DNA of 39,755 bases from a virus, in IMG/VR virus record IMGVR_UViG_3300050821_005838, positions 1 through 39,755 of that record. One strand, 5' to 3'. Each line of letters opens with the position of its first letter. Position 1 is the first letter of the stretch. Of this stretch, positions 1-16,973 are shown piece by piece. The position numbers and the translations under genes are program-made. The notes beneath the pieces are model-generated. The model was not told the origin of the DNA. It saw nothing but the letters and a program-made list of their open reading frames with translations, and did no database searches.

Positions 1-150
1 TTCTGCGCGAACCAGCCGTGTCCGACTGGATACCGGCCCTATGACGAGCACGGATGGTGCCCGGTCTGCCGCAGCCTTGCTGCGCCCTACCCGGACGGGC
101 GGCTAACCTGTCTTCGGTGTGAGTGGGAGGAGTCGCGATGCGCAAGCTGA
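1..150 (+). CDS. C-terminal fragment of a zinc-ribbon-like protein
   Basis: An open frame runs in from the left edge and stops at 148-150; its start is outside the window. The visible 49 residues contain spaced cysteine pairs (CPVC and CLRC), the layout of a small zinc ribbon. It overlaps the start of the next gene by 13 bases, so both probably belong to the mobilisation operon. Function is unknown. Confidence 0.5.
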   Translation, partial: FCANQPCPTGYRPYDEHGWCPVCRSLAAPYPDGRLTCLRCEWEESRCAS

Positions 151-515
151 TCGCCTTTTTCGCGGACATCCACGACCGCAAGGCCCAGATCCAGGGCGGC
201 ATCAAGCAGGTTTGCACCGGGGTGGCGATCGCCTTGCTGCCCCTCGCCGTGGGGTGCGTGTGGTGGGGCATCGGCATCCCGCTGCCGGATTTCGGCGGGC
301 TTGAACTTCTGGCCGTCCTCGCACTGATTGCGATTTACCCGTTTTGGATGGCCTTCTTTCTCGGGCTTGCGAAAAACGGCGTCCCGATGATCACCGGGCG
401 CAAGCCGACCAAGGCACTCGGCGGGGCCAAGTTCGGGACACGCAAAGTGATGGATAAGCTCGGCCACATCGGCGGATCGCGGCGGTCGAAGGTCTACCTC
501 GGGAGGATTCGGTGA
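138..515 (+). CDS. Membrane half of a split VirD4/TraG-like coupling protein
   Basis: A 125-residue protein. The ATG at 138 is chosen because GGGAGGAG lies 5 bases upstream; a GTG at 123 is possible but poorly placed. Two hydrophobic segments (about residues 24-45 and 55-78) are followed by a basic stretch with GGAKFGTRK and ending YLGRIR. VirD4/TraG coupling proteins carry two N-terminal membrane helices and then a short G-S-A-R-W-like stretch before the ATPase, so this gene matches that N-terminal portion alone. The rest is encoded by the next gene, which overlaps by GTGA. It would anchor the ATPase in the inner membrane at the secretion channel. The split interpretation is inference from gene order and length. 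Confidence 0.6.
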   Translation: MRKLIAFFADIHDRKAQIQGGIKQVCTGVAIALLPLAVGCVWWGIGIPLPDFGGLELLAVLALIAIYPFWMAFFLGLAKNGVPMITGRKPTKALGGAKFGTRKVMDKLGHIGGSRRSKVYLGRIR

Positions 516-1990
516 GCGACCACGTATCCTACGGCGGACCTGGGCACTATGTCGTCATCGGAGCCCCACGCTGCAACAAGACAGCGGGCATCCTGATTCC
601 GAACATCCTGTCGCTGGATGACCGCCCGCTAATCATTTTCAACGACTGTAGAGGTGAGATTTACGAGACGGTCATCCGGCACCGCAGAACCCGCGGACCT
701 TGCCTGCTGATCAATCCGCTCGGGCTGCGGGGCTACAAGTCCAGCGGCTTCAACCTGATGGTTGACCTCGACCCGAATAAGCCAAATTTCTATTCATCCG
801 GCCTCGCTTATGGCGAGGGCCTGATTGCTCGCCGACCGAACGATAACCAGCCGATTTTCAATCTTGGTGCGCAGACGCTTGTGTCCATTTTCGCGATGAT
901 GGCCAAGTTGGCATTTGGCGAAAAGGCATCGCACGCCAAGGTGCAGCAGATGATTGCGATGGCTCAGATCCCTGGCAAAAGCCCGAATCCCGAGGAGACA
1001 GACCCAACGAAAAGGATTCCCGGCGCGGCGTCGCGCCTGATTGAGATGGCTATGCAGGGCGACTATAGCCCTGATCCCGACCACGGAGCACCAAGCGCCT
1101 ATCCACAATATGACATCAGGAATGGCGGAAAACCGTTTGAGCCATTGCAACTATTGGCCACGCAATTCATGGCAAAGGCCGGGCAGGATAATCGGTTCTT
1201 TCAGGACCGCGTTGCGACGGCTCAAACTGAGATGGGCAAGCTATCTGATCCGCAGTTGATGGAGGATATGGCCAAAACGCCGAAATTCGGCGGTGTGCCG
1301 TTCGAATTCTCACGGATGCGCCAATACGCCGACCTGGATCGCAAGAAGGGCGTCTTCACTGTCTTTGTGATGATCCCGCCGAAGTTTTTCGTCACGCACG
1401 CGGTCTATATGCGGGCGCTGATCAACAATGCGATCAACTCCCTAATGGCCTCCGAGCCCGGTCCCGACACGCCGCTGACGCCGTTGATCATCATCGAAGA
1501 GATGGCCCAACTCGGGAAAATCGCGGCGGTCGAGAACTCCATCAACATGGCTGCCGGCAACGGGCTGCAATACATGATGGTGTTTCAGCAGCTCAGCAAG
1601 ATGCGGGACGCCTATGGCCAGGAGGGCGTCGGCACGATTCTCGACGCTTGCGACGTCAAGCTCTGCTTCTGTTCGGAGGACGGATACACCCAAGAATATA
1701 TGTCCAATCTCGGCGGGATGAAAGGCGAATGGGTCAAGAGCTTCCACGATGAGAGACCGGGCGTCTCGAAAACCGGGCAGTTCGCCAATCATACTCAACA
1801 GTCCGTCCCGCTGATCCGTCCGCAGGACATCCGCGACTTGAAGAAGGGCGAACTATTCGCATGGATCAAACATGCGCCGCCCGTCAAGCTCAGCGCGCCG
1901 GGCTACTTCGACACGGATGCATGGCCTGAACTGCGCGGGAAGTGGGACGTGAATTCGACATTGCCGATGAACCAGAGGAGTGCAGCATAA
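512..1990 (+). CDS. Type IV coupling protein ATPase (VirD4/TraG family), lacking its own membrane domain
   Basis: A 492-residue protein with a GTG start at 512, GGGAGG 5 bases upstream and a 4-base GTGA overlap with the membrane gene. Coupling proteins are hexameric ATPases that recruit the relaxase-DNA complex to a type IV secretion channel. The P-loop (residues 17-24) reads GAPRCNKT: the Lys and Thr are kept but the usual Gly before Lys is Asn. Walker B is LIIIEE (325-330) followed by AQLG, and a later FQQLSKM corresponds to the Gln-containing sensor region of the family. Family membership is fairly secure. The split and the altered P-loop are unusual. No secretion channel genes are visible in the window. 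Confidence 0.78.
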   Translation: MSDHVSYGGPGHYVVIGAPRCNKTAGILIPNILSLDDRPLIIFNDCRGEIYETVIRHRRTRGPCLLINPLGLRGYKSSGFNLMVDLDPNKPNFYSSGLAYGEGLIARRPNDNQPIFNLGAQTLVSIFAMMAKLAFGEKASHAKVQQMIAMAQIPGKSPNPEETDPTKRIPGAASRLIEMAMQGDYSPDPDHGAPSAYPQYDIRNGGKPFEPLQLLATQFMAKAGQDNRFFQDRVATAQTEMGKLSDPQLMEDMAKTPKFGGVPFEFSRMRQYADLDRKKGVFTVFVMIPPKFFVTHAVYMRALINNAINSLMASEPGPDTPLTPLIIIEEMAQLGKIAAVENSINMAAGNGLQYMMVFQQLSKMRDAYGQEGVGTILDACDVKLCFCSEDGYTQEYMSNLGGMKGEWVKSFHDERPGVSKTGQFANHTQQSVPLIRPQDIRDLKKGELFAWIKHAPPVKLSAPGYFDTDAWPELRGKWDVNSTLPMNQRSAA

Positions 1991-2115
1991 TGATCTCGAA
2001 TCTACTCGGAGTAGATCACGCAATAGTCTCGATGATACTCGGACTTATCACTGCTGGGATGTGGTTTGCCCGGCGCTGGGTGATTGCACGCAATCAGAAG
2101 AGGAGTGCAGCGTAA
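1990..2115 (+). CDS. Small single-pass membrane protein, 41 aa
   Basis: The ATG overlaps the coupling-protein stop (TAATG). One hydrophobic helix (about residues 11-27) is followed by a basic tail (RRWVIARNQKR). Its last codons and the following start repeat the junction after the coupling protein: both ORFs end in RSAA and both junctions read gaggagtgcagc-TAATG. This suggests the gene was inserted by duplication of that junction. No family recognised. Confidence 0.55.
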   Translation: MISNLLGVDHAIVSMILGLITAGMWFARRWVIARNQKRSAA

Positions 2116-2240
2116 TGTTCGGACTTGAACTGCTTGCCTTGGGAGGCTTGGGCGTTTCGGGTATTGGTTCGGATTGGGGCGCCTACACCCCACGCGAACA
2201 AGCAATGATAGATGCATCCGGTCCTGACGTTTATGGCTAA
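2115..2240 (+). CDS. Glycine-rich hydrophobic microprotein 1 (41 aa)
   Basis: Starts at a TAATG overlap with GAGGAG upstream. The N-terminus MFGLELLALGGLGVSG is hydrophobic and glycine-rich; the C-terminal half is polar with WGAY and VYG. The start MFGLELL is shared with the next microprotein at 2256. First recognisable member of the tandem array. Function unknown; a membrane-associated peptide is plausible from the composition. Confidence 0.6.
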   Translation: MFGLELLALGGLGVSGIGSDWGAYTPREQAMIDASGPDVYG

Positions 2241-2255
2241 CAGAGGAGACGGACG

Positions 2256-2351
2256 ATGTTTGGACTCGAGCTTTTGTTTTTGGGCTGCGTGGGTGCCGTA
2301 CCGCTGGCGATGCAGGATGACGCGAAATACGACAATTATCCGTCTTATTGA
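2256..2351 (+). CDS. Glycine-rich hydrophobic microprotein 2 (31 aa)
   Basis: AGAGGAGACGGACG precedes the ATG. It begins MFGLELLFLGCVGAVP, nearly the same start as the microprotein at 2115, then turns polar and tyrosine-rich (YDNYPSY). The shared start with a divergent tail points to paralogy within the array. Confidence 0.55.
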   Translation: MFGLELLFLGCVGAVPLAMQDDAKYDNYPSY

Positions 2352-2355
2352 CTAA

Positions 2356-2375
2356 CCGCCGCGTGACGGCCTCAC
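2356..2375 (+). repeat. Leader repeat copy 1 (small hairpin GCCG-CGTGA-CGGC)
   Basis: The 20-mer CCGCCGCGTGACGGCCTCAC, identical to 16674-16693 and differing only at its two end bases from 2570-2589. A GCCG/CGGC stem encloses a CGTGA loop. In each case the repeat lies just upstream of the ribosome binding site of a short ORF. A degenerate fourth copy lies at about 2838-2870. Confidence 0.7.
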
Positions 2376-2392
2376 ATACACGGGGATGAGCC

Positions 2393-2470
2393 ATGGAAAA
2401 CATCTGGACGATGATGGGCGGGATGGGCGCTGCCCACGGAATCGAGAACGTGTGGGGTTACGGCTACTAA
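2393..2470 (+). CDS. Glycine-rich microprotein 3 (25 aa)
   Basis: Follows leader repeat copy 1; GGGGATGAGCC precedes the ATG. The protein is rich in Met and Gly at the start (MENIWTMMGGMGAAHG) and ends WGYGY, an aromatic-glycine tail like that of neighbouring microproteins. Weaker start signal than its neighbours. Confidence 0.45.
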   Translation: MENIWTMMGGMGAAHGIENVWGYGY

Positions 2471-2482
2471 AGGAGAGAAACG

Positions 2483-2569
2483 ATGGAGCTGATAGCTTTG
2501 ATGTGCGGTGCTGGTGCCGGGGCTGCGGCCATTAACGCCAGCGAAGGCAGCTACCAATATGTAGGTTGA
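2483..2569 (+). CDS. Glycine-rich hydrophobic microprotein 4 (28 aa)
   Basis: AAGGAGAGAAACG precedes the ATG. It starts MELIALMCGAGAGAAA, shared with the next microprotein (MELIALM), then a polar tail with SYQYVG. Alanine-glycine repeats could pack as a short membrane helix. Confidence 0.58.
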   Translation: MELIALMCGAGAGAAAINASEGSYQYVG

Positions 2570-2589
2570 TCGCCGCGTGACGGCCTCAT
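2570..2589 (+). repeat. Leader repeat copy 2
   Basis: Eighteen of 20 bases match copies 1 and 3, and the GCCG-CGTGA-CGGC hairpin core is kept. It sits between microproteins 4 and 5 and is followed by GCGCAACGAAGGAGAG, closely matching what follows copy 3 (GCACAACAGAGGAG). The repeat therefore appears to travel with a ribosome binding site. Confidence 0.7.
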
Positions 2590-2610
2590 GCGCAACGAAG
2601 GAGAGATAAT

Positions 2611-2727
2611 ATGGAACTGATAGCTTTGATGCTGGGTGGCGGCTGTGCCGCTGCTGGCTGTGCCAATGGGGGGCAAGGTCTCTTCAATGAAGGCTGCGGC
2701 TTGGGCGGGGAAGGCGCATCAGGCTAA
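2611..2727 (+). CDS. Glycine/cysteine-rich microprotein 5 (38 aa)
   Basis: GAAGGAGAGATAAT precedes the ATG. Starts MELIALMLGGGCAAAG and holds three cysteines (12, 17, 29) among many glycines. Its first seven residues are identical to those of the microprotein at 2483, the clearest paralogy in the array. Confidence 0.58.
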   Translation: MELIALMLGGGCAAAGCANGGQGLFNEGCGLGGEGASG

Positions 2728-2742
2728 CGAAGGAGAGATGCC

Positions 2743-2838
2743 ATGGAAGCGATACTTTTGCTGCTCGGTGCTGGCGCCATAGGTGTTGGCGCTGGTCACG
2801 CTTTGAGCGGTGGTGAGGAAGGTCAATCCCAAGGATAA
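2743..2838 (+). CDS. Glycine-rich hydrophobic microprotein 6 (31 aa)
   Basis: GAAGGAGAGATGCC precedes the ATG. Starts MEAILLLLGAGAIGVGAG, then a polar GGEEGQSQG tail. Its small-residue spacing resembles a glycine zipper, as in the other members. Confidence 0.57.
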   Translation: MEAILLLLGAGAIGVGAGHALSGGEEGQSQG

Positions 2839-2876
2839 CCGATGCGTAACGGTGATCGACAACAAGGAGAGCGACA

Positions 2877-2948
2877 ATGACTGAATTGATTGAATATGAA
2901 CAGGAGCGACTTCAGAACCCGTGGTCGACGTCCTCGGGCTTGTTCTGA
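2877..2948 (+). CDS. Short acidic ORF, 23 aa
   Basis: CAAGGAGAGCGACA precedes the ATG and a degenerate leader repeat lies upstream. The product is polar (MTELIEYEQERLQNPW) and unlike the glycine-rich peptides, although MTELI resembles their MELI start. Its stop overlaps the next ATG (TGATG), so it may serve translational coupling. Confidence 0.42.
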   Translation: MTELIEYEQERLQNPWSTSSGLF

Positions 2949-3193
2949 TGCTGCGATTTCTTCTGCTGATCTTCTCTCTGTCGTGTTGGGCGGCATGCGG
3001 CCTTGTTGAACCGCTGCCGTTCCACACGCCGTATTTCGACATCAGCAATATCTGGGCGGTGCTGTTCATCCTGTCCGGCGCAGAACTGGCACGTCCCTGG
3101 ATCATGAGCGGCTACAAGACGTCCAAGCCGTTTAACTGGCCCTCACGCAGCCAGCCGAAGACGATGGATTTCGACGATCCGGAGACGATGTGA
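2948..3193 (+). CDS. Small membrane protein, 81 aa
   Basis: The ATG at 2948 overlaps the preceding stop (TGATG); an in-frame GTG at 2921 would add 9 residues. Two hydrophobic segments (about 2-18 and 36-53) are followed by a soluble basic then acidic tail. The operon position between microproteins and relaxase suggests a link to DNA transfer. No family recognised. Confidence 0.6.
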   Translation: MLRFLLLIFSLSCWAACGLVEPLPFHTPYFDISNIWAVLFILSGAELARPWIMSGYKTSKPFNWPSRSQPKTMDFDDPETM

Positions 3194-3402
3194 TGATACG
3201 CGCGATCCTGAATTACTTCCGGCCCGACCGAGGCCCGACTTTTGGACCCTGCACATTTTGCGGAGGTATAGGGAAGACGCCGATCCATTATGATGACGAC
3301 AAATATCGGACGGCTTGGATCGAAAGCGACGACATCCCTCTGAGGGATTGGAAAATATGCCCATGCCCGATTTGTGGAGGCGCAGGTGCATTCGCCCACT
3401 GA
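3193..3402 (+). CDS. Zinc-binding protein with two CxxCxGxG motifs, 69 aa
   Basis: Starts at a TGATG overlap (an alternative GTG at 3190). It contains CTFCGGIG near the middle and CPICGGAG near the C-terminus, two copies of the CxxCxGxG motif known from the DnaJ zinc domain. There is no J domain. It may act as a small zinc-stabilised protein-binding module. Ends 8 bases before the relaxase start. Confidence 0.6.
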   Translation: MIRAILNYFRPDRGPTFGPCTFCGGIGKTPIHYDDDKYRTAWIESDDIPLRDWKICPCPICGGAGAFAH

Positions 3403-3410
3403 GGTGATGC

Positions 3411-6400
3411 TTGATCGTCAAATCCGGACGGGGCAAGGGGCTAAGCGGCGCCGTTCGCTACATCACCGGCGAGGGAAATCTGGAAGACGGGACTCGCATC
3501 ACTCTCGCACCGGGGCAGGAGAGTCGCGTCGATCTGCTCGGTGGTCAGAATTTAGGGTTAGAGCTTGAAGACTTCCGGCAGATGGGGCTTGAAGACAAAG
3601 ATTTTGCCGAGTTTGCCCGCCGCCAGATGGAGTTCACCGCCCGCCCCGAAATCCAGGGCGACAAAAACTTTTATGCCGCCAAGGACGCACTGCATTTCAA
3701 TTTGAATTGGGCCAAGGGCGAGCAGCCGACCCGAGAGCAGCAACTGGAAGCAGCCAAGGACTATCTCAAGGCCATCGGCTTAGAGAAGGCGCAGGCCGTC
3801 ATCGTCGCGCATGTCGACCGCCAGGTCGATCGCAAGGGAAATCCGCGCGCCATCCACGTCCACGGCGTCGCCCAAATGGTCGATCGAGAGACCGGCATGG
3901 CCTATGACGATCGCAATCGCGGTTTCCGCGAACGGCACTGGGGGGTCGATTACGAGGAGCGGATGCTCAAGGAGCAGAACTGGCCAATTCCGAAGGCCAA
4001 CCAGTGGCGGCATGATCAGCGCGCGGTGACCCGCGGCCAGCCAGATTACGAGAAACTGCTCGACATCCTGGGAAAGAACGAGTCGGCAATCACAAAATTT
4101 CGGGTCGAGAACGCGATGGCCTTCGGCGGCCACGTCGAGCCGCAGCACCTAGCGGCGCAACGCGAGAACTTCGTCAAGCACAACAATATGCAACGCCTCG
4201 CCAACTATCCGAACGGCGCTGACGCGGCCTATGCCACCCAGGAGACGATCGCCCAGGAACGCCGGATCATGGGCATGGCCAAGCAACTCCATGCCCAGAC
4301 CGGATTTGAGGTGCCCGACCACATCCTCGACGAGGTGGCGAAGCGGCACGGTCTCGACGACGAGCAGAAAACCTCGATGCGGCATCTGACCCGCGACAAC
4401 GGGTTTTCGATCCAGACCGGAAATGCGGGCACGGGAAAGAGCCATGTCACCAACAAAGCCGTGCGCGACGCCTATGAGGCGATGGGCCGCGACGTCTCGG
4501 GTGGAGGATTCACAAATAATATCGCGTTACAGATGAAACATGACGGGATGCTGCGAGCGAACACGCTCGACTATTGGAAGACAAGGTTGGACTTTGAGAA
4601 GCCAGACGCGCCAGAACCGATTCTCAAGCGAGGCAGTGTGTTCGTTTTCGACGAGGGTGGCCAGGTCAAGAATGAGCACTTCGAGTCGCTCTACAATCAT
4701 CTCCATGCGCGCGGCGTGAAGGTCATCCTAAGCGGCGATCCGAAGCAGATGGCATCCATCGAGAAGGGCGCGATGATGGACGTCCATGTCCGTCAGTTCG
4801 GCACCTCGGTGCTGTCCAAAGTCTACCGCCATCCCGAAAAGCAACAGCATTGGGACGATATGGCCGAGGGCACAAAGGCCAAATCCCAGAGCAAAGCGGA
4901 GGAAAAATGGAAACAGGCCATCGAAGGATTCCGGGGTCGCGGCGAAATCCACTGGTTCGACTCCACCGAAGAGGCCATCGAGGGCATCGCCAAGCAGCAC
5001 GCCCAAGACCACAAGGAGCGCCCGGATCGGACGCAGTTGATGCTCGGCACCACCAACGACGAGGTTCTAAAACTCAACGAGGCGGTGATCGCCCTGCAGA
5101 AAGAGAACGGCACGCGTGGGCCAGAAATCCTGATCGAGACATCGAGGGGACTCCGCGCCTATGCGGTCGGCGACCGGATCACGCTAAAGGACAACCATCC
5201 TGACGTAAAAGAGAAGCGCAAGGGATTTGCGAACGGCGCACTCGGAAACCTCATCGGCCTACAGCCCGAGGCCGATGGCCGCCACCGCATGACCGTCGAT
5301 CTCGATCGACCGAAGGGCGCACAGCGGCGCGTGTTTTCGTTCTTTCCAGGTCTCAACAAGGATGCCGGCGAGATCGACACCGACCACGGCTGGGCCGGGA
5401 CCAATTACAAAGCCCAGGGTAAGACGATCGACTTCGTCTATCCGCTGCACAACCCCATCGCCAAACGGAACACGGCCTACGTTGCGATGACCCGCGACAA
5501 GGCGACGGTCTTTCTCGGCGTCGCGCGGGAGACGACTGGCGGCTATCGGGGCCTCATCGAGCAGATGTCCCACGGCGGGCCGAAGCGCGCGGCGCACAGC
5601 TACTTCATGAAGGATGAACAATCCACACAACCAGAGCGACTTATTCAAAAACAGGAGGAAGTAATGGCTAAGACTGAGACCCCCGATGAAACGCTTAAGC
5701 GGTTTGGATTCCCCGAGGATGACGTCAAAGGCATCGACACTGGCGTTAAACGCCACACTGTGGAGATGTTGCGCAAGTCCTATCCAAACGGATTTACGCC
5801 GAGACAGGAACCGAAGCCAACTAAAGAACATCAGCCGCGCGTCAAGATACTCGGATGGGAGTTTGGAGAATCCGGCCGTAAAGCGCGCGGGACCGACGGG
5901 CTCTACAAGGCCGCAGAAGACGAATTTTCCAAGTTTATAAATATCGCAGCCAGCCTACGCGACAAAGATATTCCACAAAAGACTTATGATTCCATGAAGG
6001 AAGAATATTTCCGCAAGACGACTCCGGAGCATCGCAAGCGGATGGATAAAATTCTTGATAGAGTCGACAAAGGCGAGGAATGGAAACAACGCGATCGGCA
6101 GATGCCGCAAGAGCAACCGCAAGCCAAACATGAGCCGAAGCCATCGCCAAGGCCCGGTGCCCTTCATGGCGACGACCCGCGAATCCCGCTTACCCGCGAA
6201 CAAGAGCATGAACGAGCAAAGAACGGCTTGAGTCGAGCGGCACAGAAAAATCTTGACGAGTTCACTGATGCTTGGCGCAAGCAGTCGCGGGAAGAAAACC
6301 GCGCACCAGCCACGAACCAACAGGAGTCGAAGCGTGGATGGTCAGTGAACGACATCCCCGGCAGCCGCATCATCAGAGGAACGGCACGCAAGATTGAATC

Positions 6401-6812
6401 AATAACCGACAATCTTGAAGAAAAGCTTCGGGAAAAGTGGAATCACCATGTGGCAAACCCGGTGCGCTATAAGACCGACAAAGTGCTTGATCCGGTCAGG
6501 AATCTTCTCAAGCAATCGGAGCAGCAGAAAGAGCGCGACGCAAAGCGCGAGGAGAAGAAGGCCGCCACGCGGGGGCCGGAAACCGGCAATGGTCTGACAA
6601 GGGATACGACCGTAGCCACGATGACGCGAGTCAAAGATGATGTCGACCGCGCATTTCGTCCCGCACTGCCGGTGCAATCAAAACAGGATAAGACCCTGAC
6701 GGCCGCCCCTGGTCAATCGGCCGATAAGGGTCAGGAATCACGACTGGCCTCTGCAAAGCATAATCTACCGAGAGATCAGGGGCACTCTGGTGGCTCGGGG
6801 CTGGGGATGTGA
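3411..6812 (+). CDS. Relaxase (VirD2-like nuclease) fused to RecD-like helicase
   Basis: 1133 residues from a TTG at 3411, supported by GAGGTG upstream and by the protein beginning directly with MIVKSGRGKGLSG. It would nick the transfer origin, remain attached to the 5' end and unwind DNA for transfer. The N-terminal domain shows candidate tyrosine Y17, ALHFN (94-98), AHVD with H134, and HVHG with H149/H151, matching the relaxase three-histidine metal site. The helicase part has Walker A GNAGTGKS (337-344), DE box FVFDEGG (411-417), SGDPKQ (441-446) and a UvrD-like C-terminal motif with AMTRDK (about 692-697). Residues from about 760 are charged, helical and low-complexity, probably a protein-interaction tail. 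This nuclease-helicase architecture is typical of conjugative elements, not phages. No transfer origin could be identified. Confidence 0.85.
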   Translation: MIVKSGRGKGLSGAVRYITGEGNLEDGTRITLAPGQESRVDLLGGQNLGLELEDFRQMGLEDKDFAEFARRQMEFTARPEIQGDKNFYAAKDALHFNLNWAKGEQPTREQQLEAAKDYLKAIGLEKAQAVIVAHVDRQVDRKGNPRAIHVHGVAQMVDRETGMAYDDRNRGFRERHWGVDYEERMLKEQNWPIPKANQWRHDQRAVTRGQPDYEKLLDILGKNESAITKFRVENAMAFGGHVEPQHLAAQRENFVKHNNMQRLANYPNGADAAYATQETIAQERRIMGMAKQLHAQTGFEVPDHILDEVAKRHGLDDEQKTSMRHLTRDNGFSIQTGNAGTGKSHVTNKAVRDAYEAMGRDVSGGGFTNNIALQMKHDGMLRANTLDYWKTRLDFEKPDAPEPILKRGSVFVFDEGGQVKNEHFESLYNHLHARGVKVILSGDPKQMASIEKGAMMDVHVRQFGTSVLSKVYRHPEKQQHWDDMAEGTKAKSQSKAEEKWKQAIEGFRGRGEIHWFDSTEEAIEGIAKQHAQDHKERPDRTQLMLGTTNDEVLKLNEAVIALQKENGTRGPEILIETSRGLRAYAVGDRITLKDNHPDVKEKRKGFANGALGNLIGLQPEADGRHRMTVDLDRPKGAQRRVFSFFPGLNKDAGEIDTDHGWAGTNYKAQGKTIDFVYPLHNPIAKRNTAYVAMTRDKATVFLGVARETTGGYRGLIEQMSHGGPKRAAHSYFMKDEQSTQPERLIQKQEEVMAKTETPDETLKRFGFPEDDVKGIDTGVKRHTVEMLRKSYPNGFTPRQEPKPTKEHQPRVKILGWEFGESGRKARGTDGLYKAAEDEFSKFINIAASLRDKDIPQKTYDSMKEEYFRKTTPEHRKRMDKILDRVDKGEEWKQRDRQMPQEQPQAKHEPKPSPRPGALHGDDPRIPLTREQEHERAKNGLSRAAQKNLDEFTDAWRKQSREENRAPATNQQESKRGWSVNDIPGSRIIRGTARKIESITDNLEEKLREKWNHHVANPVRYKTDKVLDPVRNLLKQSEQQKERDAKREEKKAATRGPETGNGLTRDTTVATMTRVKDDVDRAFRPALPVQSKQDKTLTAAPGQSADKGQESRLASAKHNLPRDQGHSGGSGLGM

Positions 6813-6957
6813 CGAAAACCTCCGCGACCGGCGCGGTCACGGAGGCTCTCCGGAATCCATGTTTTGCGCCCCAGAGCAGGAATGCCGCGCCGAGGATACA
6901 GATCCCCAACGCAATGAAAACGTTCGGGGGGCTCTTCTTTCCTTTGGGGAATGCCAT
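6631..6957 (-). CDS. Small membrane protein, 108-codon frame running through a terminator
   Basis: Starts at a TGATG overlap with the upstream gene, so the start is credible. A basic N-terminus (MAFPKGKK) precedes one membrane helix (about residues 13-30). After residue about 37 the frame crosses a strong minus-strand terminator (6819-6845) and then runs antisense to the last 180 bases of the relaxase gene. The distal part is probably not native coding sequence. The gene may have lost its original 3' end at the mosaic boundary with the mobilisation module. Confidence 0.45.
   Translation of the reverse strand: MAFPKGKKSPPNVFIALGICILGAAFLLWGAKHGFRRASVTAPVAEVFVTSPAPSHQSAPDLSVDYALQRPVVIPDPYRPIDQGRPSGSYPVLIAPAVRDEMRGRHHL
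6819..6845 (-). terminator. Hairpin terminator between relaxase and minus-strand operon
   Basis: Stem CCTCCG-x-GACC / GGTC-x-CGGAGG with a 5-base loop. Read on the minus strand it is followed by TTTTC, the form of an intrinsic terminator. It begins 6 bases after the relaxase stop, so it may also slow plus-strand transcription. It lies inside the 108-codon minus-strand frame at 6631-6957. Confidence 0.6.
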
Positions 6958-15816: not shown

Positions 15817-16019
15817 ATACGAAGCGAAAAGAGACGCCATCTTTCATCGGATACCAAGACCAACCAACGCGAGGACAGAGAGACCTGGCAAGGCGCCGCT
15901 CGCTTCCATTCCTCGATAGCGTGGGCGTCGACCGACCGATTAGTCTCGTGTTGGAAGAGGTCTACCTGCAGGGCATAAAAGATGCCGTCGAAGCTATGAA
16001 AGCTAGGGTGCCGGAATGA
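15813..16019 (+). CDS. Small protein, 68 aa
   Basis: ATGA overlap with the GapR-like gene. No family recognised. The last codons (KDAVEAMKARVPE) and the following start are repeated at 16292-16348, beyond the XRE gene, so this gene's 3' end was copied when that gene was acquired. Confidence 0.58.
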   Translation: MNTKRKETPSFIGYQDQPTRGQRDLARRRSLPFLDSVGVDRPISLVLEEVYLQGIKDAVEAMKARVPE

Positions 16020-16037
16020 ACAAAAGCCGCGCGCTGG
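15981..16037 (+). repeat. 57-bp junction repeat, left copy
   Basis: Covers the 3' end of the 15813 gene and the first codons (MNKSRAL) of the next. It matches 16292-16348 at all but about 8 positions; the last roughly 24 bases are identical. Together the copies flank the XRE gene. Confidence 0.75.
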
Positions 16038-16272: not shown

Positions 16273-16291
16273 GCATAACACGGATCGCAAA

Positions 16292-16348
16292 GACGCCTTC
16301 GAAGCCATGAAGGATAGTGTGCTGGAATGAACAAAAGCCGCGCGCTGG
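16292..16348 (+). repeat. 57-bp junction repeat, right copy
   Basis: Repeats the end of the 15813 gene (here KDAFEAMKDSVLE in an otherwise gene-less frame) and the ATGAACAAAAGCCGCGCG start of the 16327 ORF. It restores the original stop/start junction downstream of the XRE gene. Confidence 0.75.
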
Positions 16349-16673: not shown

Positions 16674-16693
16674 CCGCCGCGTGACGGCCTCAC
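16674..16693 (+). repeat. Leader repeat copy 3
   Basis: Identical over 20 bases to copy 1 at 2356-2375, about 14 kb away in a different operon, and again directly before the ribosome binding site of a small gene. Forms the GCCG-CGTGA-CGGC hairpin. Confidence 0.7.
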
Positions 16694-16712
16694 GCACAAC
16701 AGAGGAGTGACT

Positions 16713-16973
16713 ATGCCAAGGAAAGCAAAGAAGATCGTTTCGCAGGAAGCCAAGGAGAATATGCGTCTCGGGCAGTTGAGGCGGCAGGCGAAACGCCGCG
16801 CTGAAAAGCAAAACGCTGAATGGGCGGCTACATCACTGTCGGCCGCAGCGGTGGCGCCAGCAACGGAAATTAGCTTCGTCATATCTTCAATCTATGCCCG
16901 CAAGGAACAAGCACTCAAGACGATAGAGGACTGCGACGCCCTGCTGGCTGCGTGGGAAAGGCTGGGGCTCTAG
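16713..16973 (+). CDS. Basic small protein, 86 aa
   Basis: CAGAGGAGTGACT precedes the ATG and leader repeat copy 3 lies upstream. The N-terminus is strongly basic (MPRKAKKIVSQEAKENMRL; RRQAKRRAEKQ), suggesting nucleic-acid binding. The C-terminus is helical. No family recognised. Confidence 0.58.
   Translation: MPRKAKKIVSQEAKENMRLGQLRRQAKRRAEKQNAEWAATSLSAAAVAPATEISFVISSIYARKEQALKTIEDCDALLAAWERLGL

Follow-up and report, generated by a model that had tools for sequence, protein, structure and literature searches.

Entry-exclusion proteins of conjugative elements are small membrane proteins encoded within transfer regions. Compared with them, the ORFs of the array described here are much shorter, are present in multiple copies and have no family match. 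The genes flanking the array belong broadly to the same superfamilies as the VirD4/TraG coupling proteins and the TraA/MobA-type relaxases of alphaproteobacterial plasmids, but the locus differs from the plasmid loci in its low identity to them (about 25–31%), its split coupling protein and its chain of microORFs, of which the loci examined have none. Small hydrophobic type I toxins are known to occur as tandem duplicates, and most but not all of them have positively charged C-termini (PMC8309996). Ldr, Ibs and ZorO of E. coli resemble the array in their tandem duplicated ORFs and their short, hydrophobic, probably helical peptides (PMC8309996). Unlike them, the array encodes acidic peptides and lies in a densely packed operon with strong SD sites for its ORFs, and no antisense signal was seen. 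The genes of leaderless bacteriocins are likewise duplicated in tandem, and the peptides described are strongly cationic (PMC9484092). Aureocin A70 and thucin A share with the array the tandem homologous genes and the short, hydrophobic, leaderless peptides (PMC9484092), but these bacteriocins are strongly cationic and are accompanied by export and immunity genes. No description of an array of the present kind was found in the literature searched.

The array lies in the IMG/VR virus record IMGVR_UViG_3300050821_005838, a linear record of 39,755 bases, the whole of which was analysed and is called the window here. Transfer genes occupy positions 138–6812, and the remainder is a tailed-phage genome with recombination genes, methylases, primase, terminase, portal, protease and head proteins. 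The record divides into a transfer module (1–6812) and a phage part (6813–39755), and its left end is truncated. A minus-strand ORF of 108 aa (6631–6957) overlaps the 3′ end of the relaxase gene (3411–6812, plus strand) by about 180 bases and sits at the junction of the transfer and phage genes. In the phage part, a 60-nt direct repeat (88%; 15978–16037 and 16289–16348) flanks a small HTH-like ORF and represents another local duplication. A chimeric assembly of transfer module and phage is thought unlikely, since the two parts have a spacer element in common and similar GC contents (0.577 and 0.561). The record may come from a tailed phage with a captured transfer module, or from an element adjoining a prophage. 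Its closest full-length relative is a phage of 73 kb, with a terminase 67% and a portal 60% identical. Neither the coupling protein nor the relaxase was detectable in this phage, so the lineage does not always carry the transfer module. No relatives of the methylases were found in viral contigs by pattern search.

All genes of the transfer region discussed below are on the plus strand. The ATPase part of the coupling protein (512–1990, 492 aa) matches PF02534 (E 2.2e-31; 109.7 bits against a cut-off of 20.1), the VirD4/TraG ATPase domain, and PF12696 (E 4.2e-21). In place of the canonical Walker A motif GxxxxGK[ST] it reads GAPRCNKT in the alignment. Relative to VirD4 proteins, the ORF starts beyond the TM domain, and its chain lacks an N-terminal one. 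A separate ORF at 138–515 (125 aa), which overlaps the ATPase gene by GTGA, encodes two TM helices, the second of which begins DFGGLELLAVLAL, and a GsArFAt-like segment, collinear with VirD4 N-termini. When the 138–515 product was joined to the start of the ATPase, the score against a profile of VirD4 N-termini (up to 34 sequences) rose from 9.6 to 18.5 bits. The coupling protein is split, with the 138–515 product as the putative TM subunit beside the ATPase; a sequencing frameshift may be the source of the split. Downstream of the array lie p81 (2948–3193, 81 aa), which has two hydrophobic stretches and no family match in Pfam, PHROGs or NCBIfam, and p69 (3193–3402, 69 aa), which has two CxxCxG motifs and only a weak PHROG match. 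The relaxase-helicase (3411–6812, TTG start) matches PF03432 and AAA_30; its score against the TraA_Ti model is below the model cut-off. The genes are closely spaced: the coupling-protein gene and m1 overlap by TAATG, as do m1 and m2, m8 and p81 overlap by TGATG, and 8 nt separate the end of p69 from the relaxase start. From the coupling protein to the relaxase, the tightly packed genes apparently form one operon.

A sequence-only reading had placed eight microORFs of 23–41 codons at 1990–2948, between coupling protein and relaxase, most with a GGAG-type site of their own. All eight are present there, the flanking genes match PF02534 and PF03432 as given above, and seven of the eight have AGGAG/GGAGA-type sites; m4 has only the weak site CGGGGATGAG. 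The first ORF, m1 (1990–2115), encodes a 41-aa TM peptide with a basic C-terminus, and the last, m8 (2877–2948), a polar peptide of 23 aa; neither is a member of the family formed by the six ORFs between them. These are m2 (2115–2240, 41 aa, MFGLELLALGGLG...), m3 (2256–2351, 31 aa, MFGLELLFLGCVG...), m4 (2393–2470, 25 aa, MENIWTMMGGMG...), m5 (2483–2569, 28 aa, MELIALMCGAGAG...), m6 (2611–2727, 38 aa, MELIALMLGGGC...) and m7 (2743–2838, 31 aa, MEAILLLLGAGAIGVGAG...). Their starts are as the same reading gave them, MFGLELL in m2 and m3, MELIALM in m5 and m6, and MEAILLL in m7. A chain rule was used to measure how unusual the array is, counting non-overlapping ORFs of 18–60 codons that begin with ATG, have a GGAG-type site at most 15 bases upstream and fall within 1 kb. 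Seven ORFs are chained in 1 kb at the array, m4 being missed because of its weak SD site. In 2000 dinucleotide shuffles of the array region the mean chain was 0.5 and the maximum 3. Elsewhere in the window, and on both strands of 1.25 Mb of loci collected from plasmids, phages and genomes, the longest chain was likewise 3. Chance does not account for this series of frames.

The spacing of the ORFs alternates, with short gaps of 12–15 nt (m2–m3, m4–m5, m6–m7) and long gaps of 38–41 nt (m3–m4, m5–m6, m7–m8). The long gaps are related to one another. Spacer 1 (2352–2392, 41 nt) and spacer 2 (2570–2610, 41 nt) contain the identical 18-mer CGCCGCGTGACGGCCTCA, and spacer 3 (2839–2876, 38 nt) is a diverged copy (P=0.0025 against spacer 2, P=0.032 against spacer 1). 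Because of this alternation and the relatedness of the long gaps, the array is best described as three two-ORF modules, m2–m3, m4–m5 and m6–m7, each followed by a spacer of ~40 nt, with m1 and m8 at the flanks. The local duplication and diversification suggested earlier from shared starts and different tails thereby gains support and is refined to the module with its repeated spacer. The 18-mer recurs at 16675 of the window, within a further copy of the element (16674–16696, plus strand) that forms the perfect stem GCGTGA-CGGCC-TCACGC and precedes the ORF 16713–16973, which encodes an 86-aa basic protein outside the microprotein family. The spacer copies fold as RNA no more stably than shuffled sequences, which leaves binding by a protein, or an origin as a duplication scar, no less likely than a function as RNA; no Rfam match was found in the window. 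In IMG/VR the 18-mer has two matches, one in unrelated phage coding DNA and the other at one end of a phage contig of 5.6 kb. In that otherwise unrelated contig the spacer element spans ~23 nt, near 17–39 on the minus strand, and adjoins a lysozyme-like gene. A search of 385 alphaproteobacterial genomes for a 22-mer of the spacer, allowing one mismatch, found no copy.

Shuffling tests with anchored N-termini upheld the relatedness of m2–m7, including the weaker membership of m4. The pairs m2–m3, m5–m6, m5–m7 and m6–m7 all gave P<=0.0003, m4–m6 gave a weak P=0.003, and m1 and m8 fell outside the family. Alignment of the two groups suggests a common core [LM]-E-L-[LI]-x-L, with m2 and m3 beginning three residues earlier. 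After this start, m2–m7 continue with a hydrophobic stretch rich in Gly and Ala and a tail that varies between members, and the net charge is -2 to -4. The hydrophobic stretch is found in five of the six members, with a 15-residue hydropathy of 1.6–2.3; that of m4 is only 0.56. The Gly/Ala stretch probably forms a single short helix in the membrane, followed by an acidic tail. On a biological hydrophobicity scale every member has a positive insertion sum, so the peptides may insert only marginally or bind at the membrane surface. AlphaFold2 gave a single helix for the family, spanning residues 3–22 in m7, at low confidence (pLDDT 64), and a profile search of the PDB returned nothing meaningful. 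Membrane insertion of m2–m7 is moderately well supported.

Because no homologous array was found, the evidence for translation is internal. Codons 2–7 of m2 and m3 differ at six nucleotides, all of them synonymous, and FGLELL is kept. Random placement gives such a pattern with P 7e-5, or 2.3e-4 with transition bias, and over 12 codons non-synonymous change is in deficit (P=0.002); these values are somewhat optimistic, since the pair was picked for its look-alike starts. The starts of m5 and m6 are nearly identical in DNA and carry no synonymous signal, and the differences of m7 from both are amino-acid changes. A codon-usage score trained on the clear genes of the window was highest in the proposed frame for seven of the eight ORFs, the exception being m7, which scored higher in a minus frame. 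The excess of synonymous change that the sequence-only reading had named as a check on coding is thus present in m2/m3, together with frame-specific codon use. These patterns strongly suggest that the microORFs are translated.

Searches for relatives covered the array, its flanking genes and the spacer. No homologous array was found in IMG/VR, and plasmids, phages and sampled alphaproteobacteria held no close relatives of the flanking genes. The coupling protein and the relaxase show about 25–31% identity to anything found. No relatives of the relaxase were found in viral and genome contigs, and none of the coupling protein in viral contigs. Among the matches listed, alignment-based scans with the coupling protein gave only generic VirD4 proteins (22–26%), and it was absent from 397 genomes of one order (E<=1e-35) and from 385 genomes of the class (E<=1e-30). 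The best relaxase match in sampled genomes reached 31–33%, over the helicase part. Degenerate DNA patterns run against IMG/VR matched once for an SD site followed by MELIALM and four times for one followed by MFGLEL[LF], none of them beside transfer genes or in a microORF chain. These absences are provisional, as the scans rest on exact or degenerate patterns and sampled genomes.

We propose, with a probability of roughly one in three, that m2–m7 are duplicated single-helix membrane microproteins that act as accessories of the split type IV coupling protein. They would insert into the inner membrane as short, Gly/Ala-packed helices that carry an acidic tail, and would pack against the TM subunit encoded at 138–515, whose second TM helix their start resembles. 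In this position they could determine how the TM subunit is assembled or stabilised, or how it docks to the relaxosome or transfer channel. The extra copies would adjust dose or specificity, and the spacer would act as a control site common to the modules or be left over from duplication. The second helix of the 138–515 protein starts DFGGLELLAVL, and the motif FG.?LEL[LMIV] has three matches in 2.58 million translated positions of the loci collected, namely this helix, m2 and m3. When m2 and the helix were aligned locally, P was 0.026 among 36 comparisons, which is not significant. The occurrence of the m2/m3 motif in the coupling-protein helix was noticed after the fact and, as a possible clue to function, is only a lead. 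It points weakly to contact between the microproteins and the coupling protein. Coupling proteins in general need no such array, since 1.25 Mb of mostly VirD4 loci contain none. A bolder form of the proposal, in which the microproteins of a phage-borne transfer module mimic a TM helix of its own split coupling protein and so exert an undescribed small-protein control of DNA export, is rather improbable.

The peptides might instead serve in exclusion or immunity, keeping out either further copies of the element (entry exclusion) or competing phages (superinfection exclusion), with duplication and divergence broadening their specificity. Membrane-type peptides with common starts and different tails, encoded within a transfer operon, would suit this role, and entry-exclusion genes are commonly located inside transfer regions. 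Described exclusion proteins, on the other hand, are much longer than the microORFs, and m1, m2, m3, m5, m6, m7 and p81, the proteins scanned, have no family match in Pfam, PHROGs or NCBIfam where these were searched. We consider this role possible but unlikely. A similarly low likelihood is given to a translation relay or neutral amplification, in which the translated ORFs mainly move ribosomes along the mRNA and so fix how much coupling protein is made relative to relaxase, their sequence matters little and their copy number drifts. The stop/start overlaps and short gaps through most of the operon, the strong SD sites and the freely varying tails are what a relay would show; the conservation of FGLELL in m2 and m3 despite six nucleotide changes argues against it, and a relay would not need the constant hydrophobic, Gly/Ala-rich composition.

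Membrane-active toxins or bacteriocins, similar to tandem type I toxins or multi-peptide leaderless bacteriocins, would account for tandem related hydrophobic peptides of 25–41 aa, each with its own SD site. For the TM helix typical of type I toxins the picture is mixed: m2, m3 and m5–m7 carry hydrophobic stretches, yet with positive insertion sums and low AlphaFold2 confidence. The positively charged C-terminus of most type I toxins and the cationic character of leaderless bacteriocins are both missing from m2–m7, which are acidic, and toxins are less likely for this reason. In addition, a consensus scan, weak evidence in this organism, found no promoter-like or terminator-like site on the minus strand within the array, and the strong SD sites and operon packing imply constant translation. 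The neighbours are the coupling protein, p81, p69 and the relaxase, with no adjoining export or immunity gene of the bacteriocin type, although an immunity role of p81 is conceivable. We regard a toxin or bacteriocin function as quite improbable. That the ORFs are not genes at all, the region being fortuitous, decayed or part of a gene on the minus strand, is highly improbable. In favour of this reading, two minus-strand ORFs (133 and 128 aa) overlap the array, the codon score of m7 is higher in a minus frame and no homologues confirm the frames; against it, a seven-ORF chain arose in none of the 2000 shuffles, seven of the eight frames are the best of six, and codons 2–7 of m2 and m3 differ only synonymously.

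The array is real and unusual, an orphan without a relative found elsewhere, and makes a good small-protein lead as a candidate new small accessory to DNA transfer. Tandem microprotein families of this kind are missed by annotation. The copy number, sequence and spacer of the array can be traced once related elements are found. Should the array prove to act on the coupling protein, it would represent a compact, naturally evolved means of regulating conjugative DNA export and would show how a tailed-phage lineage with transfer genes controls them.
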